Below, one piece after another: positions 146 to 27,538 of a stretch of 64,000 nucleotides of DNA. The stretch's first letter is position 1; each line of letters starts with the position of its first letter. The translations under genes were made by a program, and so were the position numbers. Source of the DNA: Roseibium alexandrii DFL-11 (lineage in GTDB: Bacteria; Pseudomonadota; Alphaproteobacteria; Rhizobiales; Stappiaceae); assembly GCF_000158095.2 (NCBI RefSeq), contig NZ_CM011002.1, forward strand, positions 2,061,228 through 2,125,227. Direction: 5' to 3'. Under the pieces are notes generated by a model. It saw only the letters and a program-made list of their open reading frames with translations, was not told where the DNA came from and searched no databases.

Positions 146-970
146 TTATGGGGCTAAAATCATACCCTGGCGGGCGACAAGCGTGCCTGGGTGGACTGCT
201 TTTGCCGCAAGGCCGATTTCATCAAGAGCTTCGTCGGAGCGAGTCGGATCATGATGGAAGAGAACCGGTGTTTTGACGTTCGCAGTCTTTGCCAGTTCCA
301 CAGCCTTCTGCCAGGTCGAATGGCCCCATCCCTTGAACTTCTCATATTCGGCGTCGGTGTACATGGCATCATAGATCATGATATCTGCGCCTTCGACGAA
401 GGCAGGCAGAGCGGCATCAACATCCGGATCGCCATGCTCATGGTCCGTGATGATGCATATGGACTTGCCTTTGAAATCAAATCGATAGCCGCAGGCTCCA
501 CCAGGATGATTCAACCGGATCGTCCGGATCACAAGCTCATCGCGGCGCGGCAGCACATCTCCTGCCCGGAACGTCTTGAACTCCACTGCTTTCAAGGTCT
601 TGGCAGCCACCGGGAAAATCGGCGGCGACATGATGCGGCTGACGATATCCATCAGGCATGTGTCGTCCTGAAAGTGACCGGCCCAAGCAGTGACAGAAAA
701 ATTCGGATCATAGGCGGGCTTGAAGAATGGCAATCCGCAGATGTGATCCAAATGCGTGTGCGTAAACAGAAGATCGAAGGATCTGGTGCCAGCAGAGCAC
801 AGGTCCATTCCAAGGTTTCGGGCGCCGGAGCCGCAATCGATCAGAACCAGCGCATCTCCTGCCCGCAATTCAAAGCAGGAAGTTTCACCGCCATACCGCA
901 GAGTCTTCTGGCCGGGTGTCGGTGTGGACCCGCGGACTCCCCAACAACGAAGCGAAAAATTCTCTGCCAA
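146..970 (-). CDS. MBL-fold metallo-hydrolase
   Basis: A 274-residue metallo-beta-lactamase-fold hydrolase. The metal-binding motif HTHLDH (residues about 91-96) is followed by further His/Asp ligands around ITDHEHGD and a late HHDPTRSD segment, as in RNase Z and phosphodiesterase-like members. The N-terminal CWGVRGSTPTPG resembles the group often placed beside cyclic-nucleotide signalling genes. The start is a TTG at 970, 11 bp after the stop of the cyclic-nucleotide-binding gene and preceded by GGGAG. It is the last gene of a three-gene minus-strand operon. Substrate unknown. A phosphodiester such as a cyclic nucleotide is an inference from neighbours, not shown by sequence. Confidence 0.88.
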   Translation of the reverse strand: MAENFSLRCWGVRGSTPTPGQKTLRYGGETSCFELRAGDALVLIDCGSGARNLGMDLCSAGTRSFDLLFTHTHLDHICGLPFFKPAYDPNFSVTAWAGHFQDDTCLMDIVSRIMSPPIFPVAAKTLKAVEFKTFRAGDVLPRRDELVIRTIRLNHPGGACGYRFDFKGKSICIITDHEHGDPDVDAALPAFVEGADIMIYDAMYTDAEYEKFKGWGHSTWQKAVELAKTANVKTPVLFHHDPTRSDEALDEIGLAAKAVHPGTLVARQGMILAP

Positions 971-981
971 CCTGCTACTCC

Positions 982-1452
982 CTACCCGCCACTGTTTCCT
1001 TGGCGGGCTTCAGCCAGATCCCGGGTCGTCCGTTCCAGACGCATCGCCAGGGTCCGCATCACCTCAAGAGAAATATCCGGAAACTCATTTAAAAGCTTTA
1101 AGAAATCGTCTTTGGATACCATCAGGACGTCCATGCTGCTGGCGGCAACCAGGGTTGCCGTCCGCGGAACGTCGCAGAGAATGGCGATCTCGCCGACGAT
1201 CGAGTTCTCCGACACCTGGGCCACTTTTTTCTCCCCCGCAGGTGTGTTGACGAGAACGTCCGCGTCTCCGGACAAGATAATAAAGGCGCTGTCGCCCTCT
1301 TCACCTTGTGTGCAGAGGCGCTCACCGGTTTGAAACTCGGTCCGGTCGCTGATGAAAGCCAGCAAACGCAGTTTCGTGTCATCAATGCCGTGAAACAAAG
1401 GCACCTTACGCAGTGCTTCGACTTCGGTTTCCAGCGTCACATTTGTCTCCAT
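982..1452 (-). CDS. Cyclic nucleotide-binding domain protein
   Basis: A 156-residue protein that is almost entirely one cNMP-binding (CAP_ED) domain: the beta-roll runs from about residue 16 to 135, with the phosphate-binding cassette GEIAILCDVPRTATL (about 105-119) containing the conserved Glu and Arg. There is no DNA-binding helix-turn-helix after it, unlike CRP/FNR regulators, so it should act as a stand-alone ligand sensor, probably on its operon partners. It lies 81 bp downstream of the ABC exporter gene and 11 bp upstream of the MBL hydrolase. An adenylate cyclase is encoded 23 kb away in this window and could supply the ligand (inference). Confidence 0.9.
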   Translation of the reverse strand: METNVTLETEVEALRKVPLFHGIDDTKLRLLAFISDRTEFQTGERLCTQGEEGDSAFIILSGDADVLVNTPAGEKKVAQVSENSIVGEIAILCDVPRTATLVAASSMDVLMVSKDDFLKLLNEFPDISLEVMRTLAMRLERTTRDLAEARQGNSGG

Positions 1453-1533: not shown

Positions 1534-4119
1534 TTATGTTTCACTCTCCGACAGCCGCCCCTGTTCCAGGGTGTAGCGATGCTCGAATTCAGCGGCGATA
1601 TCTGCATTGGAAGTCCCGAACAGAAGCGTCCTTCCGGACAATATGCTCCTGAGGTTTTCGCGCAAGGCCTTGTCTTCTTCCGTCATGCCGGTCGCAACAT
1701 CATCGAGGATGGTTGTCGGCGCGTTTTTCAGAAGGCCGCGAACAAGCGCGATCCGCCGGCGCTGGCCCGCGGACAGCCGCGACCCTGAAACGCCGACATG
1801 GAACCCAAAGCCTGCAAAAATGATCGGTTGGCGCAGACCCGTCTCTTCCACGATTGACCGGATAACGGCGTCGATGCGCCTGCGGGCGTCGCGCCGGTCG
1901 ACACGTGGACGACCGAAGAGAAGATTGTCTTCAATCGTCAGCGGCGGCAGATAGACCTCCGGATCGAAGGCCAGGAACTCATCGTTGTCCTTGACGACGG
2001 TCTCCAGGAATTTCGAACGCGCTGCAATGATTTCGGCCTTGAGCTCATCCGTCATCACACCCAAGCGGTGGCGGGCCGGCACCAGTTTGAACGCGAGGCC
2101 CGTCAGCCGTGACTTGTCGTTGTCTGAGAGACCAGGCCGGGTTTGTCCAGACCGGGCAATCCGCACCATGCGCTCAAAGTCCGGCAGCTCCTCCTGCGTG
2201 ATGAATGAATACGACCCAAGCAGGCCGCTGCTGCCCGACACGTTGGAGAAGAGCTCCAGCATGGTTTCTGCAATCTGGACCCCGATATCCTGTAGCTTTT
2301 TATCGAAACCGTTACTCGACAGGAAGCTTTTCACCACCGGCAAATCAGGTACTTGATCCATCGTGATGTCGGCATCGGACGGCACAGCAAAAAACAGGTT
2401 GTCAGCAAGGCTGGCGCTGGCATTAAAGGTGGACGGATCCCACAGCTCCACAAGGCCAGCGAGGGTCGGGTCGGCAGCAATCCGTGCGACCAGTTCCTTG
2501 CGGACATTCAAGATGCGCCCGGCGAACGTGTCGTTCATGGACGGATCAAAACGCGACTGAAGACCGAGACGGTAGATATCGGCATCCAGCTGGACCGCCC
2601 CCAGCAGCTCCAGTGCCTTCAAATCGAGCGCGTCGATATCGGTGACGCCGGCCTTTTTGAGATCATGCCAATCGGCGGCGAGGTCGTAAGATGGGTTTTT
2701 GGTTTCGGCGGCCTCGCTCAGACTGCGTTTATAGACCTTCAGTTGCTCACCCGTGCGCTCGACATTCGTCAACGGCCGGTGACGCAGACCGTAATAGAGG
2801 TTTTCGCGGATCGTCCCGGTCCACACATGTACCGCGCCACCGACATAGGCGATCTCGCGGCCAAGTGTGGAGTCCGTCAGCTTGTCCAGATCGTGTTCGC
2901 CAATATAGACCTTTCCGCTCAAGGGAGAGACCAATCCGGCCGCGAGCTGTAACACTTCCGCCCGTCCGGAACCATCCGGCCCCATCACCGCGCAAGCCGT
3001 TCCGTCCAACACCTTCAAGGTGATATCCGTCACCTCCTGGCCAGCCGCACCACCGGAGAACGTGACGCTTTCGAACTTCACGTCGCCTTTTAGATCAACG
3101 GTTTCATCATTGGTCAGCCGATCGGTGTCGTGAATGTCGGCGGGATCGAAGTTCTCGACGACGGTCTGATACTTGATGCCAACGTCAACCGTCATCTGGT
3201 AGTAGGCGAGCAGCTCTTTCCAGGGGCCCGCGAGGTCCTTGTAGGCCGCGATCACCGCGAGCAAAGCACCCATGCTGAGGTCGCCCTGGATCACAAGATA
3301 GCCGCCGATCATATAGAAAAAGAACGGCGTCAGCTGGTTCATGAAGTTATTGAGAAACTTAATGAAATACTTCCGGTTATAAATCTCGTACCGGATCTTG
3401 AAGTTCTCGTAGAGGCGGTCGGAGAGGTCTGCAGAATGCCAGGCGGATGCGTCGTTGGCATGAATTTCCGCAACACCCGTGATCCCCTCACCCACCTTGT
3501 CGGCAATGACCCGGATGTTTTTTACGCGCTTGCGGGAGAGCTCAGCCACCTTCCGCTGGAGGATCGGGATGATGTAGCCCTGCACCGGATATGAGGCGAC
3601 GGCAGCCAAACCCAGCAGGGGATCCTGCATGAAAATAAAGCCGAGCTGCACAATCAGCATGCCGCCCTGGTAAGCGGGCAGAGCAAACGCCTCACCGACG
3701 AACCCGCCGACGTCTTCCACCTCTGACGTGATCATCGGAATGATCTCGCCGGAGCTCACCTTTCGAAAGTGCGGCAGCCGAAACCTGAGAACGCGCTGAA
3801 ACAGTTCAAAGCGCAATCGGCGCAGCATCCGCTCGCCAAGCCGTCCCTTGTAGACGTTGAGGTAAAATTTCAGACCGTTGGAAACAACAACCAGAAACAG
3901 AAATATGCAGCACAAAAGGAACAGATACGGGATCTGGTCGAAGTCGAAACCGAAAAACGTCCGCGGAAAATTGTCCCCTTCCACGGCGTCATTGATGATC
4001 AGTTTCGGCAGTTCGAGAAGGATGTAAATGACGGGATAGGTCAGCACCGTGACCATGAGAATGTAGATTTGCTGACGTGAGCTGTACTTCCAAATGAAGC
4101 TAAAAAGGCTTTTTTCCAT
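1534..4119 (-). CDS. ABC exporter-like protein with degenerate, enlarged ATPase domain
   Basis: An 861-residue half-transporter: an ABC exporter membrane domain (about residues 15-320, several hydrophobic segments) fused to a nucleotide-binding domain (about 345-855). The ATPase motifs are abnormal. Walker A reads GPDGSGRA (380-387) with the catalytic Lys replaced by Arg and Ser/Thr by Ala. The signature LSAGQ (782-786) is kept. Walker B ends ILDD, with Asp in place of the catalytic Glu, and no switch His is seen after FGTSN. About 290 extra residues separate Walker A from the signature. This stretch carries three related motifs: TIRENLYYG (436), SLADNLFFA (570) and TIEDNLLFG (728). An upstream ATG at 4149 would add ten residues. 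It heads the operon with a cNMP-binding protein and an MBL hydrolase. ATP hydrolysis is doubtful; substrate unknown. Confidence 0.85.
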   Translation of the reverse strand: MEKSLFSFIWKYSSRQQIYILMVTVLTYPVIYILLELPKLIINDAVEGDNFPRTFFGFDFDQIPYLFLLCCIFLFLVVVSNGLKFYLNVYKGRLGERMLRRLRFELFQRVLRFRLPHFRKVSSGEIIPMITSEVEDVGGFVGEAFALPAYQGGMLIVQLGFIFMQDPLLGLAAVASYPVQGYIIPILQRKVAELSRKRVKNIRVIADKVGEGITGVAEIHANDASAWHSADLSDRLYENFKIRYEIYNRKYFIKFLNNFMNQLTPFFFYMIGGYLVIQGDLSMGALLAVIAAYKDLAGPWKELLAYYQMTVDVGIKYQTVVENFDPADIHDTDRLTNDETVDLKGDVKFESVTFSGGAAGQEVTDITLKVLDGTACAVMGPDGSGRAEVLQLAAGLVSPLSGKVYIGEHDLDKLTDSTLGREIAYVGGAVHVWTGTIRENLYYGLRHRPLTNVERTGEQLKVYKRSLSEAAETKNPSYDLAADWHDLKKAGVTDIDALDLKALELLGAVQLDADIYRLGLQSRFDPSMNDTFAGRILNVRKELVARIAADPTLAGLVELWDPSTFNASASLADNLFFAVPSDADITMDQVPDLPVVKSFLSSNGFDKKLQDIGVQIAETMLELFSNVSGSSGLLGSYSFITQEELPDFERMVRIARSGQTRPGLSDNDKSRLTGLAFKLVPARHRLGVMTDELKAEIIAARSKFLETVVKDNDEFLAFDPEVYLPPLTIEDNLLFGRPRVDRRDARRRIDAVIRSIVEETGLRQPIIFAGFGFHVGVSGSRLSAGQRRRIALVRGLLKNAPTTILDDVATGMTEEDKALRENLRSILSGRTLLFGTSNADIAAEFEHRYTLEQGRLSESET

Positions 4120-4349: not shown

Positions 4350-5567
4350 ATGAGTTCCACGACACCGAAGATCCTGATTTACAGCCACGACTCGTTTGGG
4401 CTGGGACATCTCCGACGCTGCCGCGCAATTGCACAATCCCTCGTCGGTGACTTCAGCACCCTGTCTGTCCTGATCTTGTCCGGCTCGCCAATCATCGGCA
4501 GTTTTGAATTCCGCTCCCGCGTCGATTTCGTCCGTATTCCCGGTGTCATTAAACTGCGGAATGGCGAATACACGCCCCTTTCCCTGCACATCAATATCGA
4601 TCAGACCCTCGCAATCCGCTCGTCAATCATTGAACACACAGCTGAGGTTTTTGATCCGGACATCTTTATTGTCGACAAGGAGCCAACAGGCCTGCGCGGT
4701 GAAGTGCTCGGCACCCTGGAAGCTTTGAAAAAAACGGATACACGCCTCGTGCTCGGTTTGCGCGACGTCATGGACGATCCGGAAACTCTCACCGAAGAAT
4801 GGGATCGCAAGAACGTCTACCCGGCGCTGGAAGATCTCTACGACGAGATCTGGGTCTATGGGCCTGAGGGAATTTGTGATCCCCTCGACGGCATTGACGT
4901 GTCGCCAAAGATCACAGACAAGCTCCGCTACACCGGCTATCTGCGGCGCAGCTTGCCCAAATCGGCGGAAGACCAGCCTGCACCGGCGCCGTTTGAAGAA
5001 GAGCCTTATATCCTTGTGACACCCGGCGGCGGTGGCGACGGCGTGGAAATGGTTGATTGGGTCATGCGCGCCTATGAAGCGCGGCAACGCCCTCTGTTCC
5101 CTGCGCTGATTGTGCTTGGCCCGTTTATGCCCGCCGCGGCAGCGGCTGATTTCACCGAACGTGCTGAGCACCTTCGCGATGTGGAAGTTTTGCGGTTTAC
5201 CCCGCAAATCGAACCGTACCTTGCGAATGCAACGGCCATTGTTGGCATGGGCGGCTACAACACCTTCTGCGAGATCCTCTCCTTCGACAAACCGACTTTG
5301 ATGGTCCCGCGTGTCGTGCCACGCCGCGAACAGGCCATCCGGGCAGAGCGCGCCGAACAGAGTAATTTGTTGAAGGTTCTACCGATTGAGCGGTATCCGG
5401 ATGTCGACCTGATGGCCGAAGCCTTGTCGGAGTTGCCGCAAATGGCACCACCCAGCACAGCCGGTGTCGACAATCTGCTTGGCGGTCTCGATGTCATCGG
5501 CCAACGAGTTGGAGACATTTTCGCTGAACGGCAGGAAACGCTTGCCCCCAAGCTGGTAAACTTCTAA
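4350..5567 (+). CDS. MurG-like glycosyltransferase
   Basis: A 405-residue GT-B fold glycosyltransferase. The N-terminal acceptor domain opens with ILIYSHDSFGLGHLRR. The C-terminal half has the GT28/MurG-like donor site: the glycine-rich TPGGGGDG near residue 225 and the GGYNT...E...PTLMVPRVVPRREQ block near 300-330. First gene of a plus-strand cluster (4350-11425) of four glycosyltransferases, a methyltransferase and a deacetylase-like protein, probably building or decorating a cell-surface glycan or glycolipid. It is divergent from the ABC exporter operon, with 230 bp between them that must hold both promoters. Sugar donor and acceptor unknown. Confidence 0.87.
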   Translation: MSSTTPKILIYSHDSFGLGHLRRCRAIAQSLVGDFSTLSVLILSGSPIIGSFEFRSRVDFVRIPGVIKLRNGEYTPLSLHINIDQTLAIRSSIIEHTAEVFDPDIFIVDKEPTGLRGEVLGTLEALKKTDTRLVLGLRDVMDDPETLTEEWDRKNVYPALEDLYDEIWVYGPEGICDPLDGIDVSPKITDKLRYTGYLRRSLPKSAEDQPAPAPFEEEPYILVTPGGGGDGVEMVDWVMRAYEARQRPLFPALIVLGPFMPAAAAADFTERAEHLRDVEVLRFTPQIEPYLANATAIVGMGGYNTFCEILSFDKPTLMVPRVVPRREQAIRAERAEQSNLLKVLPIERYPDVDLMAEALSELPQMAPPSTAGVDNLLGGLDVIGQRVGDIFAERQETLAPKLVNF

Positions 5568-5613: not shown

Positions 5614-6834
5614 ATGTCCCGAATTGCTGTTGTGATGAAAGGCTATCCACGCCTTTCCGAAACCTTTATTGCCCAGGAAATTCTTGGCCTGGAACGGCGG
5701 GGCATCGACTTTCTGATCGTCGCACTTCGCCAGCCGTACGACCCTTACATTCACGACCTGCACCGTCAGATCTCGGCGGAGGTCATGTACTTGCCGGAGT
5801 ATGTGAAGGACGATCCGGCGCGTGTTGCCCGCGCGAAAAAGTGGGCCGAGGCGCAACCGACCTATGAAGCGGCGAAGGCCTTGTTCGATGCAGATTTCTC
5901 CCACGAAAGCAACGCCAACCGGCAGCGCCGCTGGGCGCAGGGCTGCGTATTTGCGCATGAACTGCCCGAGGACATAACCTGGATCCACACCCATTATCTG
6001 CACACACCCTGCTCGGCTTCGCGCTATGCGGCGCATCTGTCCGGCCGCCGCTGGTCCTTTTCCGCCCACGCCAAGGACATCTGGACCAGCCCGGAGTGGG
6101 ATCTGCGCACGAAACTCGACGACGCAGAATGGGGTGTGACTTGTACCGGCGTCAACGCGAAGTACCTGAAAAGCCTTTGCAGCAATCCGGACAAGGTTGA
6201 GCTTGTTTATCACGGCCTGGATTTTTGCTGCTTTCCAATGCCGTCCGAGAAACCGTCCACCAAGGACGGCAGCGGTGCACCGGTTCAATTGATTTCCGTG
6301 GGCCGTGCGGTGGAAAAGAAAGGCTACAATGATCTATTGACAGCCCTTTCGAAACTGCCCGAAGACCTCAACTGGCATTTCACCCACATCGGCGGCGGCG
6401 CGCTCTCAGAAAAACTGAAGGAACGCGCGGACCGTCTGGGGTTGTCCGATAAGATCACCTGGCGCGGAGCGCAACCGCGTGAGGAAGTCATCAGCTCTTG
6501 CCAGAAGGCGGACCTTTTTGTTCTACCCTCCAAACTCACCAAATCCGGTGACCGGGACGGCATTCCGAACGTGCTGGTGGAAGCCCAATCGATGGGCATT
6601 TGCTGCCTGTCGACAAGCGTTTCGGCCATCCCTGAGCTGATTACCGATGGCGAGACAGGCCGCCTTGTGCCGCCCGCCGACCCCAAGACCCTTGCCAAGT
6701 CGCTGGAAGACCTGATTAAAAACCCGGGTGAGCGGGACCGGCTTGGCAAAGCCTCTGCCGAAAATGTCCGGACAAACTTTGCGACCGAGCCGGGCCTGGA
6801 TCATCTGGCGGAGAAGTTCCGCAAACTGTTGTAG
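5614..6834 (+). CDS. Glycosyltransferase family 4
   Basis: A 406-residue GT4-type retaining glycosyltransferase. The N-terminus MKGYPRLSETFIAQE is the acceptor-domain signature shared with WcaL/EpsF-like enzymes of exopolysaccharide synthesis. The C-terminal domain holds ISVGRAVEKKGY and the donor-binding E-x7-E region near DGIPNVLVEAQSMG. It starts 46 bp after the previous glycosyltransferase and ends 26 bp before the next, so the cluster is probably one transcript. Specificity cannot be read from the sequence. Confidence 0.9.
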   Translation: MSRIAVVMKGYPRLSETFIAQEILGLERRGIDFLIVALRQPYDPYIHDLHRQISAEVMYLPEYVKDDPARVARAKKWAEAQPTYEAAKALFDADFSHESNANRQRRWAQGCVFAHELPEDITWIHTHYLHTPCSASRYAAHLSGRRWSFSAHAKDIWTSPEWDLRTKLDDAEWGVTCTGVNAKYLKSLCSNPDKVELVYHGLDFCCFPMPSEKPSTKDGSGAPVQLISVGRAVEKKGYNDLLTALSKLPEDLNWHFTHIGGGALSEKLKERADRLGLSDKITWRGAQPREEVISSCQKADLFVLPSKLTKSGDRDGIPNVLVEAQSMGICCLSTSVSAIPELITDGETGRLVPPADPKTLAKSLEDLIKNPGERDRLGKASAENVRTNFATEPGLDHLAEKFRKLL

Positions 6835-6860: not shown

Positions 6861-8006
6861 GTGAAGATCGCCTTCACAGCTCCAATGAAGCCGCTGGACG
6901 ACCCAACCCCGTCCGGAGACCGCACCATGGGCCGTCTGATCGTGAAAGCGCTGGAGTTCGGCGGCCATGAGGTTCACACGGCAACCCGCTTCCAGGCCTG
7001 GCGCAAGAACGGCGGCGATGCCGAACTTTTGTCCGTCAAATCGGCAGCCCTGCAAGAAGCAGAGCGCGTTGGGGATGTTTGGGAGCAAGAAGGCTACCAG
7101 CCGGACATTTTTCTGACCTATCACCTCTATCACAAGGCTCCCGACTGGATCGGGCCAGCGCTGGCGGACCGGTTCAACATCCCCTTTGCGGTAATCGAGG
7201 CGAGCCGCGCACGCAAACGGCGCACAGGTCCCTGGGCGATCGGGTTTCAGGGCGCTGATGACGCCCTGACGCGTGCCGACGGGATCGCCGCACTTCATGA
7301 CTGGGACCGGGACCGGCTGCTGCCTTTCTTCGAAGAAACCGGCACCGACCCGGCGCAGCGCCTGCGCACCGTTCTCCCCTTTCTGGATCTTTCGGCATTT
7401 GCAAAGCCCCAATCATCGCGGCCAGTGCCGGAACCACCTTTTAGACTGCTCACGGTCGGCATGATGCGCGAGGGCGACAAAACGGCGTCCTACGAAGTTC
7501 TGGCAGCGGCCCTCGGCCAGCTATCCGACTTGCCGTGGCATCTCACAATTGTTGGCGACGGCCCCAACCGCGACGCGATTTTGGGCCAGTTACCCAAGGA
7601 CCGAATTGCCTGGCTGGGAGCCCTACCGCCCGAGCAGGTCATTGCCGAATACCCGAAGCACGACCTCTTCGTTTGGCCGGCGATCCGCGAGAGCTTCGGC
7701 TTTGTGCTTTTGGAAGCCCAGGCCTCCAGCCTTGGCGTTGTTGCCGGCGATGCGCTCGGTGTACCGGAAATCGTCGCAAACGGCACGACTGGCCTGCTCG
7801 CGCCCGAGGGAGACGCGCCAGCCTTTGCTGAAAGATTGCGCCAGCTGCTCACCGATCCGCAGCGCGTCCGGTCGTTTGGAGAAGCTGCAAGAGCCCGCAT
7901 GTTTGCATTACATTCTCTGGATGCAGGTGCCCGCCGCCTTGACGCCTTTCTGAATTGCGCACTAGACCACTACAAACGCTTGTCCGATCAACCCAAGGAT
8001 CGCTGA
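6861..8006 (+). CDS. Glycosyltransferase family 4
   Basis: A 381-residue GT4-like glycosyltransferase. The N-terminus KIAFTAPMKPLDDPTPSGDR matches the family's first strand and a loop that often binds acceptor. The C-terminal domain has LTVGMMREGDK and the donor-site run ESFGFVLLEAQASSLG with the paired Glu residues. The start is GTG at 6861; an ATG at 6841 hits a stop after seven codons. It is followed after only 5 bp by the next glycosyltransferase. Sequence is distinct from the gene at 5614, so this is probably a different linkage in the same glycan. Confidence 0.88.
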   Translation: MKIAFTAPMKPLDDPTPSGDRTMGRLIVKALEFGGHEVHTATRFQAWRKNGGDAELLSVKSAALQEAERVGDVWEQEGYQPDIFLTYHLYHKAPDWIGPALADRFNIPFAVIEASRARKRRTGPWAIGFQGADDALTRADGIAALHDWDRDRLLPFFEETGTDPAQRLRTVLPFLDLSAFAKPQSSRPVPEPPFRLLTVGMMREGDKTASYEVLAAALGQLSDLPWHLTIVGDGPNRDAILGQLPKDRIAWLGALPPEQVIAEYPKHDLFVWPAIRESFGFVLLEAQASSLGVVAGDALGVPEIVANGTTGLLAPEGDAPAFAERLRQLLTDPQRVRSFGEAARARMFALHSLDAGARRLDAFLNCALDHYKRLSDQPKDR

Positions 8007-8011
8007 TCATC

Positions 8012-9169
8012 ATGTCGCTGACCGCTTTCATCTATGTCCAACATCTTCTGGGGACGGGCCATGTGGTCCGGGCAACGGCGATCGGCAAGAAACTCGCGGA
8101 ACGCGGCGTTAACGTGACGCTCGCCTCCGGCAACCAGATCCCGCCGACACTGGATGTGGAAGGGCTGGAGGTTCTGGAACTTCCCGGCGCCAAGACGGCA
8201 AACGCGGAGTTTTCCCGTCTGATCACACTGGACGGCAAGGATCTGGATGATGAGTGGCGTGCCATGCGCACAGCCGAAACGCTGAATGCCTTCGCCGCCA
8301 AGCCCTACGATCTTCTCCTGACCGAGACTTATCCTTTCGGGCGCCGGCAATTCGAGTTCGAGCTCTCGGTTCTTATGGATACGGCCAAGGCGAGAGCCAA
8401 CCCGCCAATCATCGCAAGCTCCATCCGCGACATTCTCGTACCCAAGCAGCAGCTCTGGAAAGAGGAATGGATGGCCGACAAGGCGCGCGATTATTTCGAC
8501 AAGGTGCTGATTCACGCCGACCCGGATTTCATCACTCTGGCCGACAGCTTTCCGTTCGCCCACAAGATTGAGGATCTTCTGGCCTACACCGGCTATGTGG
8601 TTCGCGAAGGCGACCGGCCGGAGCCGCCGGAAGGCGACGGCGAGGACGAGGTTGTTGTCTCCTGTGGCGGCGGGGCCATGTCCGAAAGCCTCTTGAGCGC
8701 GGCCATTGATGCCCGTCCCCTGTCCCGGCGCGCCGAAGACTGCACTTGGCGGGTGCTCGCCGGTCACAATGTGCCGGAAGACGAGTTCCAGGCGTACAAG
8801 GCCCGTGCGGGCGAAGGGGTCATCGTGGAACGGGCCCGTCCCGATTTTCCGGGTCTTTTGAACCGGGCCCGGCTTTCCATCAGCCAGGGCGGCTACAACA
8901 CCGTTCTGGATGTTCTGGAAGCCGGGGTTCCATCCGTGATCGTGCCGTTTGCGCTCGCAACGGAAACCGAACAGGAGCAGCGCGCGAAGGCGTTGGCCAA
9001 CCATGGCCGCGTTGTCGTCGCCAGCGAGGACATGCTGACACCGGAACGCCTGGCTGCGGCCGCCGACGATGCGCTGGCCCTGCCGCGCAGTCACCACAAG
9101 GTGCTTCTGGGCGGCGCGGACCGCAGCGCGGACATTCTGATGGACTTGCTCAAGGCACGGGCGGCTTGA
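8012..9169 (+). CDS. MurG-like glycosyltransferase
   Basis: A 385-residue GT-B enzyme related in layout to the one at 4350. The N-terminal FIYVQHLLGTGHVVRA corresponds to the G-x-GH acceptor loop. The C-terminal half has VVSCGGGAMSE and the GGYNTVLDVLEAGVPSVIVP donor block followed by TEQEQR. ATG at 8012 is chosen because it lies 5 bp after the preceding stop; a longer frame from 7955 would overlap that gene by 52 bp and adds non-family residues. Two MurG-like enzymes in one cluster suggest addition of nucleotide-linked sugars to a lipid or small acceptor (inference). Confidence 0.88.
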   Translation: MSLTAFIYVQHLLGTGHVVRATAIGKKLAERGVNVTLASGNQIPPTLDVEGLEVLELPGAKTANAEFSRLITLDGKDLDDEWRAMRTAETLNAFAAKPYDLLLTETYPFGRRQFEFELSVLMDTAKARANPPIIASSIRDILVPKQQLWKEEWMADKARDYFDKVLIHADPDFITLADSFPFAHKIEDLLAYTGYVVREGDRPEPPEGDGEDEVVVSCGGGAMSESLLSAAIDARPLSRRAEDCTWRVLAGHNVPEDEFQAYKARAGEGVIVERARPDFPGLLNRARLSISQGGYNTVLDVLEAGVPSVIVPFALATETEQEQRAKALANHGRVVVASEDMLTPERLAAAADDALALPRSHHKVLLGGADRSADILMDLLKARAA

Positions 9170-9228: not shown

Positions 9229-10029
9229 ATGGAATTGAGCAAGTTCAAGGCCTTGAACGATGTTGACAGCGTAAACGCCTATATCTCCGCCTTAGAAGCC
9301 TTCGACGGGATCGCCGAGCTTCAGGAACTCAAGGACCTTGCCCGCACCCGCGGCGGTGTCGCTGCAGGAAAATCCATTCTCGATGTCGGTTGCGGGTTCG
9401 GTCTGGAGACCCGGCGCCTTGCAGAAGCGGCCGGCGCCCAAGGTAGTGCTTGCGGCCTCGACAAGAGCGCCGACTTCATCAAGGAAGCGCAGCGGCGCGC
9501 CGAAGCTGGAGGTCAGTCAATCGACTATCAAACCGGCGATGCGGCCGCGCTGCCCTATGGCGACGGAAGCTTTGACTGTGCCCGCGCCGAACGGATCCTG
9601 ATCTATCTGACCGATTTCAGGGCCGCGCTTTGCGAAATGCGCCGGGTTCTCAAACCCTCCGGAAAGATCGCCCTGATCGAACCGGATTTCTCCACCAACA
9701 CGATCAACATCTCGGACCGGACGCTCGCCCGCCGCGTTCTGGACCATGAGATCGAGACCGCCGTTGAAAACAGCTTTTTGCCAGGACCGCTGGTTTTGGC
9801 GCTTAAAGATCTCGGTTTCGCTAACATCGAGATTTCCTCGCGCGCGCTAATCTTCCCGCAGGACCTGGCGGCCAGCTATTTCTCAAGCCTTGCCGTCAAT
9901 GCTCTTAAGTCCAGCAAGATAACGACCAGCGAAAACGAGGCCTGGCAAACCGAACTTGATGACCTCAAGGCGCGGAATGCAATCTTTGCGACCATCAGCT
10001 ATTTTCTGTTCACCGCCGATGCGCCGTGA
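9229..10029 (+). CDS. Class I SAM-dependent methyltransferase
   Basis: A 266-residue Rossmann methyltransferase. Motif I is ILDVGCGFGLET (about residues 45-56), followed by an acidic residue at the end of strand 2 (GLDKSADF), then YQTGDAAALPYGDGSFDCA and the post-motif RVLKPSGKIALIEPD. The start ATG has GGAGAACAGG upstream. It overlaps the next gene by 4 bp (GTGA). In this cluster a sugar or glycolipid acceptor is plausible. The Methyltransf_11-like layout does not fix the substrate. Confidence 0.9.
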   Translation: MELSKFKALNDVDSVNAYISALEAFDGIAELQELKDLARTRGGVAAGKSILDVGCGFGLETRRLAEAAGAQGSACGLDKSADFIKEAQRRAEAGGQSIDYQTGDAAALPYGDGSFDCARAERILIYLTDFRAALCEMRRVLKPSGKIALIEPDFSTNTINISDRTLARRVLDHEIETAVENSFLPGPLVLALKDLGFANIEISSRALIFPQDLAASYFSSLAVNALKSSKITTSENEAWQTELDDLKARNAIFATISYFLFTADAP

Positions 10030-10859
10030 GTCTACTTGGAAACCCTGTGACAGCTCCCTCTACACCCAGCGATCTTGATCGCTTCAAGGCATCTTTGACC
10101 GCTCACCTCGACTGGTTTGCCGACCGTGGCCAAAAGGTCCGGTTCTGGTGGCGCGACGATGATGCGATCGAGCCCACACCGCAGCTGGAAAAACTACTCT
10201 CCCTTGCCAATAACCATGATGTCGATGTCGCCCTTGCGGTGATCCCGAAACAGGCAACTGCAGCCCTGGCGGACCGGCTGAAAGACGAGCGCCACGCCCC
10301 GGTTCTGCAACATGGCTGGCAGCACAAGAATTTTCAGCGCAAGGATTTGGGCGAACGGGCCGCCGAACTGGGATTCCGCCGTGATCTTGAGGAACTCGGC
10401 GCTCAACTGACCGAAGGCAAGGCCAAGCTGGACGAGCTCTTTGGTGAGAAATTCATTCCCGCGATCGTCCCGCCCTGGAACCGGATCGCCCCGGACGTCT
10501 CACGCGCCCTGCCCGGCCTCGGTCTGCCGGGCCTGTCCACGTTTACCTGGCACAATTTCCCAAAGGCCCATCAGGTTCAGTGCCACGTCGACATCATCAA
10601 GTGGAAACGGGACGTCCGGTTCATCGGCTGGGGCAGTGCGTTGCGCAAGTTCGACCTGGAGCTCTGCCGCCGCCGCAACAACCCTGACGAGCCCCTCGGT
10701 CTCCTGACCCACCACCTTGTCCATGACGTGGGCTGCTGGGAATTTCTGCAAGAGTTCCTCACAATCGCCGCGCATCACCCGGGGGCAGAATGGCCTGAAG
10801 TGAAAGACCTGTTTGGCTGCACTCCTGTAGCTGATCCATCCAAAAGCACTGCCGCATGA
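10026..10859 (+). CDS. Polysaccharide deacetylase-like protein
   Basis: A 277-residue protein of the polysaccharide deacetylase / NodB-like fold. It has the paired acidic motif WWRDDD (about residues 41-46), an HGWQH segment (about 98-102) that can serve as the zinc-binding H-x3-H motif, and PPWNRI near 149, matching the family's R-P-P-x-W region. GTG start at 10026 overlaps the methyltransferase stop. Its own stop overlaps the ATG of the DUF3088 gene (ATGA), showing tight translational coupling. Likely removes N-acetyl groups from the glycan assembled by the upstream enzymes (inference). Confidence 0.85.
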   Translation: MSLLGNPVTAPSTPSDLDRFKASLTAHLDWFADRGQKVRFWWRDDDAIEPTPQLEKLLSLANNHDVDVALAVIPKQATAALADRLKDERHAPVLQHGWQHKNFQRKDLGERAAELGFRRDLEELGAQLTEGKAKLDELFGEKFIPAIVPPWNRIAPDVSRALPGLGLPGLSTFTWHNFPKAHQVQCHVDIIKWKRDVRFIGWGSALRKFDLELCRRRNNPDEPLGLLTHHLVHDVGCWEFLQEFLTIAAHHPGAEWPEVKDLFGCTPVADPSKSTAA

Positions 10860-11720: not shown

Positions 11721-12038
11721 CTATCGATTGAGATCCTTACCCAAATCAAACCATTCGGGATTGGTTGCTTCGATCAGCTCGATTTTCCAAGCACGTGACC
11801 AGTGTTTGATCGCCTTTTCACGCGAAATTGCCCGCTCAGCGGTCGCATGTTCTTCATACCAGACCAATCGCTTCACACTGTACTTCTGCGTGAACTTGGA
11901 CCCGGTTCCCTGTTGATGCTGATATAGTCTACGGGACAAATTGTTGGTTACGCCCGTATACAGCGTCCCGTTTTTTTGGCCTGCCAGGATGTAAACCCAA
12001 AACCGCCTTATCCGTAGATAGAAAACGGCATAGATCAC
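11721..12038 (-). CDS. GIY-YIG nuclease family protein (UvrC-like URI domain)
   Basis: A small GIY-YIG protein of the COG2827 type: WVYILAGQKNGTLYTGVTNN supplies the paired YIL...YTG motif, followed by the conserved Arg of LSRRLYQHQ, the KFT..Y..KRLVWYE strand and the Glu of the REKAIKHW helix. Usual length for the family is 90-110 residues. A GTG at 12038 gives 105. An ATG at 12134 would add 32 residues encoded by the REP-like repeat, which is unlikely to be real protein. There is no ATG between the two. The gene sits between repeat units A and B. Role unknown; a link to repeat mobility is speculation. Confidence 0.8.
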   Translation of the reverse strand: MIYAVFYLRIRRFWVYILAGQKNGTLYTGVTNNLSRRLYQHQQGTGSKFTQKYSVKRLVWYEEHATAERAISREKAIKHWSRAWKIELIEATNPEWFDLGKDLNR

Positions 12039-12180
12039 CGGGTCAAGCCCGGTGATGACGGAGGTTGTGGCGGGTTTCTTGCGAAAAAACCAACCGTGAA
12101 TACTCACATAAAGTTTTATACACCCTAAAACCAACTTCCTTCGTCATTGCCCGGCTCGACCGGGCAATCCATGCCGTGAC
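12027..12180. repeat. REP-like inverted pair, unit B
   Basis: The left arm (12027-12080) matches unit A's left arm (11471-11524) at nearly every position across 54 bp, including the CACCGGGTCAAGCCCGGTG core. The right arm (12142-12180) reads CGTCATTGCCCGGCTCGACC then GGGCAATCCATGCCG. The unit overlaps the 5' end of the GIY-YIG gene by a few codons and so forms the second of two direct copies around that gene. Confidence 0.75.
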
Positions 12181-12287
12181 CTTTGCCATGAGGCCCGGAC
12201 TTCCGAGCGGAAATGAACCGTCGTGCCCTCCGATCAAGGTCCGGGGAAGACGGAGCGTATGGAGAGACACTGTGCCAACAGTTCCTT

Positions 12288-12349
12288 CGTCATTGCCCGA
12301 CTTGAGGAGCCTGCCCCCGGTTTGACCGGGTGGCAATCCATGCCGTAAC
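12288..12349. repeat. Solitary REP-like repeat arm
   Basis: A third copy of the right arm, reading CGTCATTGCCCGACTTGAGG and ending in GGCAATCCATGCCGTAAC. It is closer to the arm at 11586-11647 than to its neighbour at 12142. No facing left arm is seen. The rest of 12181-12452 contains no gene I can support; a 118-codon minus-strand frame there is only repeat sequence. Confidence 0.7.
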
Positions 12350-12452
12350 GGCTGCTGGTATTTTTGGGCCTCACTCAGACACTCAGGAAATGCGATCAAC
12401 CTGTCGGCATTTGGAGGGACGAAAGCGCCCCCAGCTTTATCAATCCATATCC

Positions 12453-12950
12453 CTACTCCGCGGCCTCGCCGTCCCTGCGCAGGATGGCGGCGTAGTCGCG
12501 TCTCAAAAGATTGAGTTTCGGGTCGATGTACGTCTTGCAGAACGGGCGCTCGGGGCCGTTCAGGTAGTAGTTCTGAAACCGCTCGTCAGACGGCTTGAAG
12601 GCGGACAAAGTGAACACCTTGGTGACTAGCGGTTCGTCAAAGTGCTTTTGAAGGTCGTGCAGGATTTGGGCAACGCGGACGCCGGTGCCCGCATCATAGG
12701 TATAGACAGCGCTGCGGTATTTGCCGCGCATCTTGTGGTGTGATGTTGCCGAATGGGTGCGCAGATGAACCTCGATCAGCACCTCCATCGGCAACGCTAC
12801 TGGGTCAAAGGTGACTAAGACAGCTTCCGACCAGGCATGGTTGGGCGGGTCGGAGCGAACGAAGCCCTGCTCGACATTCGAAATCCCGGCAAGCGTCTGA
12901 AAAACGGCCTCGGTGCACCAGTGGCACCCGCCGCCGAGCCCGAGTTTCAT
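12453..12950 (-). CDS. msrA: Peptide methionine sulfoxide reductase MsrA
   Basis: A 165-residue MsrA reducing methionine-S-sulfoxide in oxidised proteins. The catalytic Cys lies near the N-terminus in [13 protein letters not shown] (usually GCFWC; His replaces Phe). The Asp/Tyr-rich middle includes [17 protein letters not shown] at 12950 is chosen because the family normally starts a few residues before the Gly-Cys motif; the frame stays open for another 57 codons upstream but gives unrelated sequence. No MsrB is adjacent. Divergent from the nitrile hydratase operon. Confidence 0.88.
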
Positions 12951-21195: not shown

Positions 21196-22377
21196 TCACT
21201 TATAGGGATCAGCCGCATCGCGCAAACCATCACCGAGGAAATTGAAGGCCAAAACCACAATGATGATCGGGATCACCGGTGCCATCAGCCAGGGATAGAC
21301 CGTGACGACGGAAATGTTTTGCGCCTCGTTCAGAAGGACGCCCCAGGAGATGGCCGGTCTTCGAAGTCCGAGGTTGAGGAACGACAGAGCCGTCTCGCCA
21401 AGGATCATTGCCGGGATCGACAGGCTGGCCGAGGCTATGATGTGACTGGTGAAGCCAGGCAGAAGGTGACGAGTGATGACCCGCTTTGGCTTCGCCCCCA
21501 TCATGACCGCCGCCTTGGCGTACTCTTCTTCGCGGAGAGACAGGAGCTTTGACCGGACGGCACGTGCTAGCCCCGGCCAATCGAGCAGTCCGAGGATAAT
21601 CGTCAGGCCAAAATAGACCCAGACGGGGCTCCAGGTCACGGGCAAGGCAGCGGACAACGCCATCCAGAGTGGCAATTCCGGCAGAGAACGCATGATCTCG
21701 ATCAACCGCTGAATGAGCGTGTCCGCGATGCCGCCGAAGTAGCCGGCAATGCCGCCAAAAAACAGCCCCAACACAATGGAGATCGTAACGCCAACCAAAC
21801 CAATCGTCAGCGACAGCCGGGCACCGTAAACCAACCCTGAGAACTGGTCCCGGCCCAATCGATCGGTCCCAAGAAGAAATGCGGTACCGCCCTCTGCAGG
21901 ACAAAACAGATGGACCGTGGCCGGGAACAAACCCCAGAACTCGTAATCATCGCCGGAACAGAAGAACCGGAGTGGCTGCACCTTATCCAGATCTGGAGCG
22001 TACTCCCACTGGAGCGTTTCCATGTTGATTTCAGATTTCAAACCGTAAACGAAGGGGCCAACAAACGAACCGTCATGGAAAAGATGCACCGGCTGCGGCG
22101 GGGCATAGAGGTGATAGCTGTCCCGCGTATCCGGCGCATAAGGCGCTATTATCTCTGCAAAGGGCACACAAAGGTAGAAAATCAAAAGGACAACGCCGGA
22201 CCAAACAGCCAGTTTGTGGCGCTTGAACTTCCACCACATGATTTGCCACTGGGAGGCCTGGTAGAACTGCTCCTGCTCGGGGCTGAGTTCTTCGACGACA
22301 GCCGGATTGAACGGTTCGGGATCCACATAATGCTCGACTTCCCGCACCGGTGTCTTGTTCTTCAGGTCGTCGCTCAT
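21196..22377 (-). CDS. Peptide-type ABC transporter permease (DppC/YejE-like)
   Basis: A 393-residue permease with a longer than usual soluble stretch (about residues 60-150) between the first transmembrane segment and the core. The five-helix core carries the conserved LGTDRLGRDQFSGLVYGAR segment and the EAA-type loop around REEEYAKAAVMMGAKPKRVI. ATG at 22377 overlaps the stop of the partner permease (TGATG); a GTG at 22380 is an equivalent alternative. Pairs with the gene at 22377-23399 to form the membrane channel. Confidence 0.9.
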   Translation of the reverse strand: MSDDLKNKTPVREVEHYVDPEPFNPAVVEELSPEQEQFYQASQWQIMWWKFKRHKLAVWSGVVLLIFYLCVPFAEIIAPYAPDTRDSYHLYAPPQPVHLFHDGSFVGPFVYGLKSEINMETLQWEYAPDLDKVQPLRFFCSGDDYEFWGLFPATVHLFCPAEGGTAFLLGTDRLGRDQFSGLVYGARLSLTIGLVGVTISIVLGLFFGGIAGYFGGIADTLIQRLIEIMRSLPELPLWMALSAALPVTWSPVWVYFGLTIILGLLDWPGLARAVRSKLLSLREEEYAKAAVMMGAKPKRVITRHLLPGFTSHIIASASLSIPAMILGETALSFLNLGLRRPAISWGVLLNEAQNISVVTVYPWLMAPVIPIIIVVLAFNFLGDGLRDAADPYK

Positions 22378-23399
22378 CACGAAGCCCTCCCGCCGAGACG
22401 AATTCTTGGGTCAAGCACGGCCAGCAGCAGATCAGAAATCAACATCCCGATCAGGGTCAGAACAGCCACAAAGAGAAGCACAAAACCGGCAAGGAACTGA
22501 TCCTGCGATTGCAGCGCGGACAAGAGAACCGGGCCGACAGTCGGCAAGCTCATGACGACCGATACGATCACCGAGCCCGAGACGAGAGAGGGAATAAGAT
22601 TGCCGATGTCTGCGATGAACGGATTGATGGCCATCCGCAACGGATATTTGATCAGAAGCTGGCCTTCTTTCAGGCCCTTTGCCCGGCCTGTTGTTACATA
22701 CTGCTTGTGCAATTCATCGAGCAGGTTGGCCCTGAGGCGTCTGATCATACCTGCCGTCCCCGACGTCCCGATCACGATGGTCGGGACAATAAGGTGTGCG
22801 AGGACTGACATCGCCTTGTCGAAACTCCAGGGCTGGTCGATGTACTCCGGGGCCATCAACCCGCCGACAGCCAGGCCGAACCACTGATTGAAGAAATACA
22901 GGAGGATCAATGCGAGCAGAAAGTTTGGTGTGGCAAGGCCCACATATCCGATGAAGGTGAAACCATAATCGCCCCAAGAGTATTGGCGCGTCGCTGAGTA
23001 AATGCCGATTGGAAAGGACATCACGTAGACGAACAGAATGGTCGCGAAATTGAGCACAATTGTCAGCGGCAAAGTTGGTCCAACGACTTCCGCCACCGGC
23101 TTGTCAAATTCAAACGACCAGCCCCAGTTGCCCTGCAGCAACCCATCCAGCCCATGCGGCCCCGGCCAAAGACCCACCCAGATCAGGTACCGCTCGAAAA
23201 ACGGACGATCGAGGGAAAACTCCTTGCGGAGGAACTCCAGCTTCGCAATAGACGATTGCTCGCCGGACGTTTTCAGCGCGGCGATCTGGTTTGAAATGTA
23301 ATCGCCTGTCGGCAACTCGATGATGAAGAACACCAGAAAACTGATCACGAACAAGGTCGGAATCATCATCAAGATCCGGCGCACAATGTAATACAGCAC
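22377..23399 (-). CDS. Peptide-type ABC transporter permease (DppB/YejB-like)
   Basis: A 340-residue inner-membrane permease. It has the N-terminal RRILMMIPTLFVISFLVF helix, the BPD_transp_1 core, and the EAA loop TTGRAKGLKEGQLLIKYPLR that docks on the ATPase. Six transmembrane segments can be read. It is separated from the upstream binding-protein gene by 254 bp that contain a hairpin (23484-23508), and overlaps the second permease. Confidence 0.92.
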   Translation of the reverse strand: MLYYIVRRILMMIPTLFVISFLVFFIIELPTGDYISNQIAALKTSGEQSSIAKLEFLRKEFSLDRPFFERYLIWVGLWPGPHGLDGLLQGNWGWSFEFDKPVAEVVGPTLPLTIVLNFATILFVYVMSFPIGIYSATRQYSWGDYGFTFIGYVGLATPNFLLALILLYFFNQWFGLAVGGLMAPEYIDQPWSFDKAMSVLAHLIVPTIVIGTSGTAGMIRRLRANLLDELHKQYVTTGRAKGLKEGQLLIKYPLRMAINPFIADIGNLIPSLVSGSVIVSVVMSLPTVGPVLLSALQSQDQFLAGFVLLFVAVLTLIGMLISDLLLAVLDPRIRLGGRAS

Positions 23400-23483
23400 C
23401 TAATTTCCCCTCAGCCTCGGAGCTTCTGCATCACGGCCCCGAAAAGTTCCGGGAGCCGGGCGACGCTGAAGATCCAAATGCCA

Positions 23484-23508
23484 TACCGGCAGAAAGCCAC
23501 ACTGCCGG
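23484..23508. promoter_or_regulatory. Intra-operon hairpin
   Basis: An ACCGGCAG / CTGCCGGT stem with a 9-nt loop sits in the 254-bp gap between the binding-protein and permease genes. Such structures often protect the abundant binding-protein mRNA or reduce read-through. On the plus strand it is followed by TTTTTG, but no plus-strand gene ends here. Confidence 0.5.
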
Positions 23509-23653
23509 TTTTTGAGGCGGCGCGTTGACAACGGTGCTGCAACAACACCGCTGGCTCTCTTGCCGCCTACAACTATCGGACCAACGCTCTAATCCCGTGT
23601 TGTTCCTGCCCGTACCGGCTCCGGCGAACCGGCCCGGAATCTCGTAGCAAACC

Positions 23654-25540
23654 TTAGTCGTCCATGTAGAATTCATCCATGCGATGAATGCCGTAGTGTG
23701 CGCCCGGATCCCACCCGTAGATGCCTTCGAGCGGAACGTTCTTTACGTCCTTGATCACGACAGGTTGGCGCACGCCAGATACGAGGCCGATCCGGATGGT
23801 TTCATCCGCATGGATCTGCAGCATTTCCTGCCAGATTTTTTCGCGTTCTTCTGTCGTTTCGGACACTAGCCAGGCCTGATAAAGCTCCATCAACCGTTGT
23901 GCAGGCGCCCAATCCAACGGCTCCCCGCCTGTGCCCTTGGTTTCGTAGTGATCGCCCCAAGCATGCCAGGTCAGGCTCTCCGACTGAACAGGTGCCAGAT
24001 CATTCGGGCTCATGTCCGCGGTCGGGATGCCATTTTCCATGCCCCACCAGACCGACATGACCAGATCGCCGGTGATGGCCCGCTCCCGCAGGTTGTCACG
24101 CTGGCTCGGCTTGGAAAACAATTTGACGCCGATTTCAGCCCAGTTTTCTGCAATGAGCTCCAACGCATCCAACTGGGTTTCATCTTCGCCGGATGTCTCC
24201 ACAATAATCTCAAGTGGACGGCCATCGCTCATCAGCCGGATGCCGTCATCATCGCGCTCGGTCAGACCGATTTCATCGAGCAGTGCGTTGGCTTTATCGA
24301 CATCGTATTCGGCCCACTTGGTGGTGAACTCCGGCTGATGCAGCGGGCTCCTGCTCAACACGGTGTCATTGCCTGGTGTTCCAAGACCAAAAAACAGCAC
24401 CCGGTTCAAAAGCGTACGGTCAATACCGAGCGACAAGGCATGGCGGAACCGGGTATCGCGCATCAATTTCCGCCAAACAGGGTCCTTGACCGTGAGATTC
24501 GGCAGGATCGACATCTCCGAGCCTTTGGCGTTGGACCAAAGAGCCGTGATGTAGTCGTTCAGCTTCTCGCCCTTTTTCAGCACCGTGATGTCTGAGAAGT
24601 TGAGGTTCCGTGCCTGAAGATTGGTCTCCCCGGCCTGTGTCTTGGCCGGAATGAGCTTTCCGTCAGCAACCGTCATGATGATTTCGTCGATATAGGGAAG
24701 CTGCTGACCCGCGGAATCGACGCGGTGATAGAACGGGTTCCGAACGAGAATGAAACGAAGATCGCTTTTGTCGTCCCTGCGGATCCAGGGCTGAAGGCTG
24801 GGAAGGTCGACATTGCGCGCGCTGTACATGTCATCCTTCTTGTTGTGCAGCGGTGCCCAACTGCGGGCCTTTACCTTCTCAGCTTCCGCCGCGATGGTCT
24901 CCGGATCGCCGTACTTTTCATGGAATTGTTTCAGATAATGCGCAGGCCGGTAGATAAACGGCGGGCGGGCCTTGGCGAGCTCTGTCAGGAAGAGCGGGTT
25001 CGGCGCATCCCAGGTAAACCGGACGGTCGTCTCGTCAAGCACTTCGAACTTCGGTCCCTTGCCATCAGCCAGCAAGAACGGCGGCAGGCCCGACGGTGTC
25101 AGCTCCGGATTACTGACAACGTCTTCAAAATAATACCGGATGTCTTCCGCACCAAAAGGATGGCCATCGGACCATTTATGACCCTCTCGGGTGTGCAGCG
25201 TGAAGATACGACCCTCTTCCACATCAACGCTTTCGAGAAGGTCCGGTACCAGTTCCAAGTCTTCGTTGTACCCCATCAGGCGCGCATACCCCCACACGTT
25301 GATGAGGCGCACATCTTTGGATCGGCCGATCAGTGTGTTCAGCTTGCCGCCGTGTTCGCCAACGGTGCGCCCCTTGGCTTCAAGGTCCACGATCAACGGC
25401 TCGGACGGAACCCGTTCCGCCACAGGCGGAAGTTTGGTATCAAGGCCCGGAGTTTCCTTAAGATCCAATGCGGACGATGGCCCGGCCAGCGCAAAAGCGG
25501 CAAGAAAGGCCCCCCCACCAAGAATGCGTTTCAGTTTCAT
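23654..25540 (-). CDS. ABC transporter substrate-binding protein (SBP_bac_5)
   Basis: A 628-residue periplasmic solute-binding protein with an N-terminal signal peptide (KLKRILGGGAFLAAFALAGPSSALD, cleavage near residue 25). Family 5 features include FTLHTREGHKWSDGHPFGAEDIRYYFEDV and RFRHALSLGIDRTLLNRVLFFGLGTPG. It is long for the group (usually about 500-550), like YejA-type proteins. The ATG overlaps the ATPase stop by 4 bp. Ligand is probably a peptide or peptide-like compound, though this cluster cannot be assigned more precisely. Confidence 0.92.
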   Translation of the reverse strand: MKLKRILGGGAFLAAFALAGPSSALDLKETPGLDTKLPPVAERVPSEPLIVDLEAKGRTVGEHGGKLNTLIGRSKDVRLINVWGYARLMGYNEDLELVPDLLESVDVEEGRIFTLHTREGHKWSDGHPFGAEDIRYYFEDVVSNPELTPSGLPPFLLADGKGPKFEVLDETTVRFTWDAPNPLFLTELAKARPPFIYRPAHYLKQFHEKYGDPETIAAEAEKVKARSWAPLHNKKDDMYSARNVDLPSLQPWIRRDDKSDLRFILVRNPFYHRVDSAGQQLPYIDEIIMTVADGKLIPAKTQAGETNLQARNLNFSDITVLKKGEKLNDYITALWSNAKGSEMSILPNLTVKDPVWRKLMRDTRFRHALSLGIDRTLLNRVLFFGLGTPGNDTVLSRSPLHQPEFTTKWAEYDVDKANALLDEIGLTERDDDGIRLMSDGRPLEIIVETSGEDETQLDALELIAENWAEIGVKLFSKPSQRDNLRERAITGDLVMSVWWGMENGIPTADMSPNDLAPVQSESLTWHAWGDHYETKGTGGEPLDWAPAQRLMELYQAWLVSETTEEREKIWQEMLQIHADETIRIGLVSGVRQPVVIKDVKNVPLEGIYGWDPGAHYGIHRMDEFYMDD

Positions 25541-27423: not shown

Positions 27424-27538
27424 CGTCAATTTCCTCCCGGGCAAAGGTTATTACACTGATGCTTACCCAGCCTGTGTTGCGAAACAAAGACAACCAAATT
27501 TACGCTGTATTAGCAACGCAATAATCCGGAAGCGGTGC

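Follow-up and report, generated by a model that had tools for sequence, protein, structure and literature searches.

Degenerate ABC exporters with cyclic-nucleotide-binding partners: a widespread bacterial family that has apparently lost its ATPase function

The 64,000-nucleotide stretch examined here (the window) comes from Roseibium alexandrii DFL-11 and spans positions 2,061,228 to 2,125,227 of contig NZ_CM011002.1. Near its left end lies a gene for an 861-residue protein related to ATP-binding cassette (ABC) exporters, with a transmembrane domain (TMD) and an enlarged nucleotide-binding domain (NBD) whose catalytic motifs are broken. Directly downstream is a gene for a small protein with a cyclic-nucleotide-binding (cNMP) domain. 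The observation concerns a family, not an oddity; this bacterial family is widespread and uncharacterised, and no published account of it was found in the literature. The exporter gene, its parts and the two genes that follow it are listed below, in positions of the window.

1534..4119, minus strand: degenerate ABC-exporter protein, 861 amino acids; open reading frame (ORF) confirmed
3130..4119, minus strand: TMD, residues 1-330 (PF00664, E=6.2e-18), the best-conserved part of the family
2779..3099, minus strand: first part of the NBD, residues 341-447, with the broken Walker A (380-387), the Q-loop region and ENL motif 1
2788..2814, minus strand: ENL motif 1, TIRENLYYG, residues 436-444, with Asn440
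1939..2778, minus strand: insertion, residues 448-727
2275..2538, minus strand: repeat unit, residues 528-615, from profile-profile alignment
2386..2412, minus strand: ENL motif 2, SLADNLFFA, residues 570-578, with Asn574
1804..2055, minus strand: second repeat copy, residues 689-772, from the same alignment
1912..1938, minus strand: ENL motif 3, TIEDNLLFG, residues 728-736, with Asn732
1537..1905, minus strand: second part of the NBD, residues 739-861, with LSAGQ and TILDD, switch His absent
982..1452, minus strand: stand-alone cNMP protein, 156 amino acids (PF00027, E=3.5e-19), 81 bp downstream of the exporter gene
1153..1197, minus strand: phosphate-binding cassette VGEIAILCDVPRTAT, residues 86-100 of the cNMP protein
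146..970, minus strand: metallo-beta-lactamase-fold hydrolase, 11 bp after the cNMP gene; a candidate cyclic-nucleotide phosphodiesterase (unproven)

Both the exporter TMD and the NBD fold are present in the 861-residue protein; PF00664 and PF00005 (residues 364-462) match above cutoff, and a predicted structure of the whole protein (mean predicted local distance difference test score, pLDDT, 84) combines an exporter TMD with an NBD-like fold. Its closest structural match is chain A of the heterodimeric exporter 3qf4, and the matches within 1 of its Z include homodimers. The protein stays far below the cutoffs of the MsbA lipid A exporter equivalog TIGR02203 (160.7 bits versus 602) and, in the comparison with HetC/NHLM exporters, of TIGR03796 (125.4 versus 853.3).

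The initial annotation, made from the DNA letters, had described an exporter ORF at 1534-4119 that has lost the Walker A Lys and Ser/Thr, ends Walker B in DD, lacks the switch His and keeps the LSAGQ signature; sequence and alignment agree on every point. Walker A reads GPDGSGRA (380-387), with R386 and A387 at the Lys and Ser/Thr positions; Walker B reads TILDD (803-807), with Asp807 in place of the catalytic Glu; Ser837 occupies the switch-His position in the alignment, and the signature is intact at 782-786. The Q-loop Gln is also gone (YVGG at 425-428, with Gly428), a loss absent from that description.

The same erosion runs through the family. Among 79 aligned members, the Walker A Lys is kept in 36 and its Ser/Thr in 18, the Walker B Asp in 33 and Glu in 37, the Q-loop Gln in 11, the signature Ser in 46 and Gly in 18, and the switch His in 17. 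Arg or Ala replaces the Walker A Lys in 40 members. No member has all eight catalytic positions; one (P0114) has six, eight have five and eight have none. Judged from this census, the positions were lost piecemeal: different members have lost different ones, spread over all motifs. Despite this, the asparagines of the three ENL motifs are retained in 77, 79 and 79 of the 79 members.

Conservation is inverted as well. In exporters of this kind the NBDs are ordinarily the best-conserved region, as stated in the excerpted part of a review (PMC7756269). Among the 79 members, identity between pairs averages 0.54 for the TMD and 0.358 for the NBD core, which is the less conserved of the two in 3034 of 3081 pairs. 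As a control, a canonical exporter with 28 orthologues in the same class gave 0.511 for the TMD and 0.645 for the NBD, with the order reversed in a single pair out of 378. By the measure of sequence identity, constraint has moved from the NBD to the TMD. NBD and insertion still remain under purifying selection; the ratio of non-synonymous to synonymous substitution rates (dN/dS) against the 98%-identical relative L003 (L numbers denote loci) is 0.021-0.046 in four regions, the insertion included.

The distance from Walker A to the signature, put at about 400 instead of about 110 residues in the initial annotation, is 397 here (family median 396, range 369-468 in the 79 members), against 103-109 for six canonical exporters encoded by this genome. 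The pattern (T/S)xx(E/D)NLx(F/Y)(G/A) occurs exactly three times, at 436, 570 and 728 as had been noted; by a hand estimate, well below 0.01 occurrences per 861 residues would be expected by chance. A comparison of residues 520-620 with 681-780 by hhalign aligned 84 columns (E=1e-19, score 101.8; the highest of 40 column shuffles scored 16.4). From sequence and prediction together, the extra ~280-290 residues hold two further copies of the ABC helical subdomain, placed between Q-loop and signature. The proposed internal expansion is thus supported by the profile-profile repeats and, weakly, by the predicted fold of the insertion alone (residues 446-728, mean pLDDT 90.8). Profile searches brought out these internal repeats; for the insertion of the 861-residue protein there was no Pfam match and no PDB sequence match. 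A frameshift or assembly artefact, the earlier caveat, is excluded because length is conserved across the family and dN/dS is low. One family member (L174:8484-12506) carries about 440 extra N-terminal residues in open frame, a region with no Pfam match.

The most constant companion of the degenerate exporter is the cNMP domain, a new finding that goes beyond the initial annotation. It is present in all 74 full-length loci (ABC frame >600 amino acids; flanks up to ~8-11 kb, shorter in a few, e.g. L020), encoded by an adjacent gene in 65 and fused to the exporter in nine. Among eight relatives scanned, five carry a C-terminal fusion (L119, L121, L123, L049, L050), and no cNMP domain lies within the proteins of L122, L124 and the TMD-only L132. 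In a sample of the class, the domain occurs in 30 of 30 loci of the family, which include this genome and others already in the locus set, and in none of 30 canonical-exporter loci with comparable flanks. The PDB matches of the 156-residue protein are PKA/PKG-type domains and the domain of the SthK channel. In 66 stand-alone copies, the Glu of the phosphate-binding cassette is kept in 63 and the Arg in 65; in the 13 copies classed as fused (one, L174, an artefact), Glu is present in nine, Asp in four and Arg in all 13. The partner probably senses cyclic AMP (cAMP) or cyclic GMP (cGMP), if cassette residues are a guide. Thr after the cassette Arg is associated with cGMP binding in PKG. Thr follows the cassette Arg in most stand-alone copies (62 of 66), so that the ligand may be either of the two.

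Possible sources of such a ligand lie close by. In 48 of the 74 loci, a sequence search (E 1e-5) found a class III cyclase 0.3-6.4 kb downstream, encoded on the same strand; PF00211 was confirmed in all six of these that were scanned (L017, L115, L122, L128, L129, L131) and in the copy of the Roseibium genome. That copy (L168:12460-13815, minus strand) lies ~1.4 kb past the left edge of the window, and the gene order is exporter, cNMP protein, metallo-hydrolase, a helix-turn-helix-like protein (below cutoff) and cyclase. For one locus, chance proximity is unlikely, given a count of 19 class III cyclase domains for the genome of 5.46 Mb. Two of five additional full-length loci also have a cyclase, immediately upstream of a fused gene in L170 (a CHASE2 cyclase) and downstream in L174. 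In three loci (L129:6864-8618, L128:3176-5158, L131:5357-7084) the gene straight after the cNMP gene encodes a different cyclase, one with a 2Fe-2S ferredoxin domain, which suggests a redox-sensing input to the same module. The metallo-hydrolase recurs in 53 of the 74 loci.

The family is common in Alphaproteobacteria. A protein search scored 7993 candidates, of which 2950 matched at E <= 1e-3, ordinary ABC exporters included. Of the best 120 of these 2950, 119 are 839-926 amino acids long and the exception has 593; the genera listed among these 120 are Roseibium, Stappia, Pseudovibrio, Polymorphum, Breoghania and others. Members from Nisaea and Rhizobium came out of an alignment search; plasmid records extended the list to Sinorhizobium, Azospirillum, Mesorhizobium and others. 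In the class sample, 149 of 387 genomes (145 of 378 good ones) have a match at E <= 1e-60; these counts are profile matches, a few of those listed being partial, and not each is confirmed as full length. A single-sequence query of a phylum sample matched 28 of 398 genomes at the same threshold; a single one of these matches, a short frame with the TMD alone on a small contig, comes from outside the class.

Such TMD-only frames, of ~400 amino acids, form a branch of their own. A search with one of 399 amino acids returned 260 proteins at E <= 1e-3, some of which may be fragments. The 26 aligned NBD-less proteins stop 0-76 residues past the TMD, leaving no room for an NBD; even so, some carry the annotation ABC transporter ATP-binding protein. 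In a tree they group as a single clade (support 1.0) nested within the full-length family; support is modest for the node that joins them (0.785) and for the separation of the whole family from six outgroup exporters (0.692). By genome frequency they are rarer than the full-length form, with frames below 480 amino acids in 3 of 31 matches. No cNMP domain was found in four NBD-less loci, of which one is a contig piece of 3 kb. The following NBD-less genes lie in copper or other metal-resistance islands.

L132:9000-10199: copper-resistance neighbours
L133:9539-10780: copper-resistance neighbours
L169:8867-10093: neighbours are a MerR-type regulator and a cation-efflux protein
L176:8001-9200: Thalassospira, copper-resistance neighbours
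L177:7848-9152: Roseovarius, copper-resistance neighbours

Across these islands the neighbours are genes for multicopper oxidase, CopB, cupredoxin, PCuAC or MerR/CDF proteins. L132 and L176 encode the same protein and L134 has the gene layout of L132 (by ORF lengths), so that the three count as one lineage. In Defluviicoccus (L178) the neighbour is an RND efflux gene, and no copper gene is named there. As read from the genomes, this branch appears to have lost its ATPase domain entirely, and most of the inspected loci are metal-resistance islands. The existence of NBD-less relatives suggests that the TMD of the family can work without its motor.

Beyond the exporter gene, the window holds a divergently transcribed glycosyltransferase cluster and, further to the right, an importer with a cyclase beside it.

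4350..5567, plus strand: GT28-type glycosyltransferase, divergent from the exporter gene (PF04101, 1.2e-6); relative in 63 of 74 loci
5614..6834, plus strand: glycosyltransferase family 4 (a) (PF00534); 62 of 74 loci
6861..8006, plus strand: glycosyltransferase family 4 (b) (PF00534); 61 of 74 loci
8012..9169, plus strand: second GT28-type glycosyltransferase (PF04101, 1.6e-12); 62 of 74 loci
9229..10029, plus strand: methyltransferase (PF13649); relative in only 6 of 74 loci
10026..10859, plus strand: 277-residue cluster protein, no family matched; relative in 59 of 74 loci
21196..27444, minus strand: oligopeptide-type importer, comprising OppC, OppB, solute-binding protein family 5 and a double ATPase
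27614..29494, minus strand: class III adenylate/guanylate cyclase (PF00211, 1.4e-28) with HAMP and a weak dCache match (below cutoff), adjoining the importer

The first GT28-type gene, the first family 4 gene and the second GT28-type gene occur together in 61 of the 74 loci, and glycosyltransferases or the gene for the 277-residue protein, which by eye we take to resemble a polysaccharide deacetylase, are in the flanks of 64. Relatives of at least two importer genes are present in L118, L127, L128, L129, L131, L135, L179 (S. meliloti) and L181 (Azospirillum). OppC is no more than 0.7 kb from the 277-residue gene in several Stappia loci; in the window the distance to the importer is 10 kb. Positions 11721-14464, between the two parts of the locus, hold ORFs that resemble, by eye only, a GIY-YIG protein, MsrA and nitrile hydratase subunits; insertion of this segment may have divided the locus in the present lineage. 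The shared context of cyclase, glycosyltransferases and importer suggests an envelope-glycan system under cyclic-nucleotide control. Elsewhere in the window, positions 56001-58000 have the highest AT skew among the 2-kb blocks (0.239).

Taken together, the catalytic census, the inverted conservation and the NBD-less relatives support a loss of ATPase function, as far as sequence can speak. On balance, we think it probable that the family represents an ABC exporter scaffold that works without ATP hydrolysis and whose conformation is set by cAMP or cGMP. The cNMP domain would dock on the enlarged pseudo-NBD, and binding of cAMP or cGMP would drive or release the conformational change that ATP drives in a normal exporter. 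The TMD would thereby become a ligand-gated passage or a secondary transporter; the cyclase would produce the signal, which the metallo-hydrolase may remove. A glycoconjugate or its precursor is perhaps the cargo, an option favoured because the conserved glycosyltransferase set adjoins the gene in most loci. This step from pump to gated protein is proposed as a hypothesis on genomic and evolutionary grounds. The initial annotation had suggested a switch from ATPase to sensor, scaffold or regulated channel; this is partly supported, by sequence for the loss of ATPase function and by the cNMP partner for regulation, and any of the three roles may apply. A fuller picture can be offered tentatively: a cyclic-nucleotide-gated, ATP-independent transporter or channel with its ABC cassette, the helical subdomain triplicated, turned into an allosteric adaptor and with second-messenger binding in place of ATP as the switch, belonging to an old and common alphaproteobacterial system of which an NBD-less branch was later recruited to metal-resistance islands.

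Several observations weigh against a nucleotide-gated scaffold. The Walker A Lys survives in 36 of the 79 members, and P0114 (57% identical to the 861-residue protein) is without only the Q-loop Gln and switch His, retaining Walker A Lys and Ser/Thr, signature Ser and Gly, and Walker B Asp and Glu; some members may for these reasons bind ATP. L123 and L136 retain GKS and DE, but are without Q-loop Gln, signature Gly and switch His. On the side of the partner, Asp replaces the cassette Glu in 4 of 13 fused-class copies, and the cassettes of L128 and L129 are imperfect. No cyclase lies in the flanks of 26 of the 74 loci (some of these flanks are short) or of L171-L173, three of the five further full-length loci, and the Roseibium/Stappia loci are not independent for cyclase proximity. 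The 74 loci are in any case phylogenetically uneven, most of the 50 named contigs being Roseibium, Labrenzia or Stappia. None of the cluster genes is near in 10 of the 74 loci, eight of which have fused cNMP domains.

The rival that survives best, though it is unlikely, is a pure signalling protein: the TMD would transport nothing, and the protein would serve as a membrane receptor or scaffold, passing a periplasmic or lipid signal on to the cyclase and the cNMP protein. The lost catalytic positions and the cyclase and cNMP neighbours would suit such a role, but the TMD retains the exporter fold and is the best-conserved part, and the TMD-alone branch, with no cNMP domain in four loci and mostly in metal-resistance islands, suggests transport. 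It is more doubtful still that the protein is the inactive half of a heterodimeric exporter, paired with a canonical ATPase half encoded elsewhere and forming a pump that the cNMP protein tunes. The closest structural match, 3qf4 chain A, points that way, but near-equal matches include homodimers. No second exporter ORF was found in the flanks of 78 loci at E 1e-6, in a search that also missed known ABC ATPases there; in L120, an HlyD-type gene adjoins a 576-residue ORF. In the degenerate sites known so far, each half has a Walker A that binds nucleotide. Replacement of its Lys by Arg or Ala in about half of the members speaks against pairing of this type, and a poorly conserved NBD core fits badly with an obligate NBD:NBD interface. 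A weak or slow ATPase, with altered Walker motifs that still bind ATP under regulation by the insertion, is very improbable: the intact LSAGQ of the 861-residue protein, the Lys, Asp and Glu kept in 36, 33 and 37 of 79 members and the six of eight positions in P0114 favour it, but loss has struck all motifs member by member and constraint is inverted relative to ATPases.

The family can be compared with several known ABC systems. It differs from type I (type IV fold) exporters such as MsbA, TM287/288 and PCAT1 by its lost catalytic residues, its ~290 extra residues, its cNMP partner and a TMD that is more conserved than the NBD. HetC of Nostoc likewise joins an ABC exporter to a cyclic-nucleotide-binding-type domain; as reported, its domain bound guanosine tetraphosphate (ppGpp) and showed no stabilisation with cAMP (PMC10986499). 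This precedent means that such a domain may bind a nucleotide other than cAMP or cGMP. From HetC and NHLM-type exporters the present family nevertheless differs: HetC carries its cNMP domain at the N-terminus, together with a C39 peptidase, and needs an ATPase residue in vivo, whereas here the cNMP domain is separate or C-terminal and the motifs are broken; neither a peptidase nor an N-terminal cNMP match was found in the 861-residue protein or in seven full-length relatives scanned. SbmA/BacA have an ABC-exporter-like TMD that functions without an NBD, and in this they resemble the NBD-less branch; the one such protein searched, that of L132, matched PF00664 as its sole family at E <= 0.01, and not the SbmA/BacA Pfam family. 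NBD-less relatives let one ask what an exporter TMD does without its motor. To our knowledge, few outputs of class III cyclases are known in these bacteria; if the proposal is true, cAMP or cGMP gains a direct, non-transcriptional target at the membrane. In CFTR and SUR, too, an ABC exporter scaffold is no longer a pump; both still bind ATP, are eukaryotic and are not known to have a cNMP-domain partner. The scaffold described here likewise seems no longer to pump, and it has a cNMP partner. ABC transporters are defined by ATP; should a family have given up its ATPase and carry a cNMP partner in its stead, it would represent in bacteria the kind of repurposing seen in CFTR.
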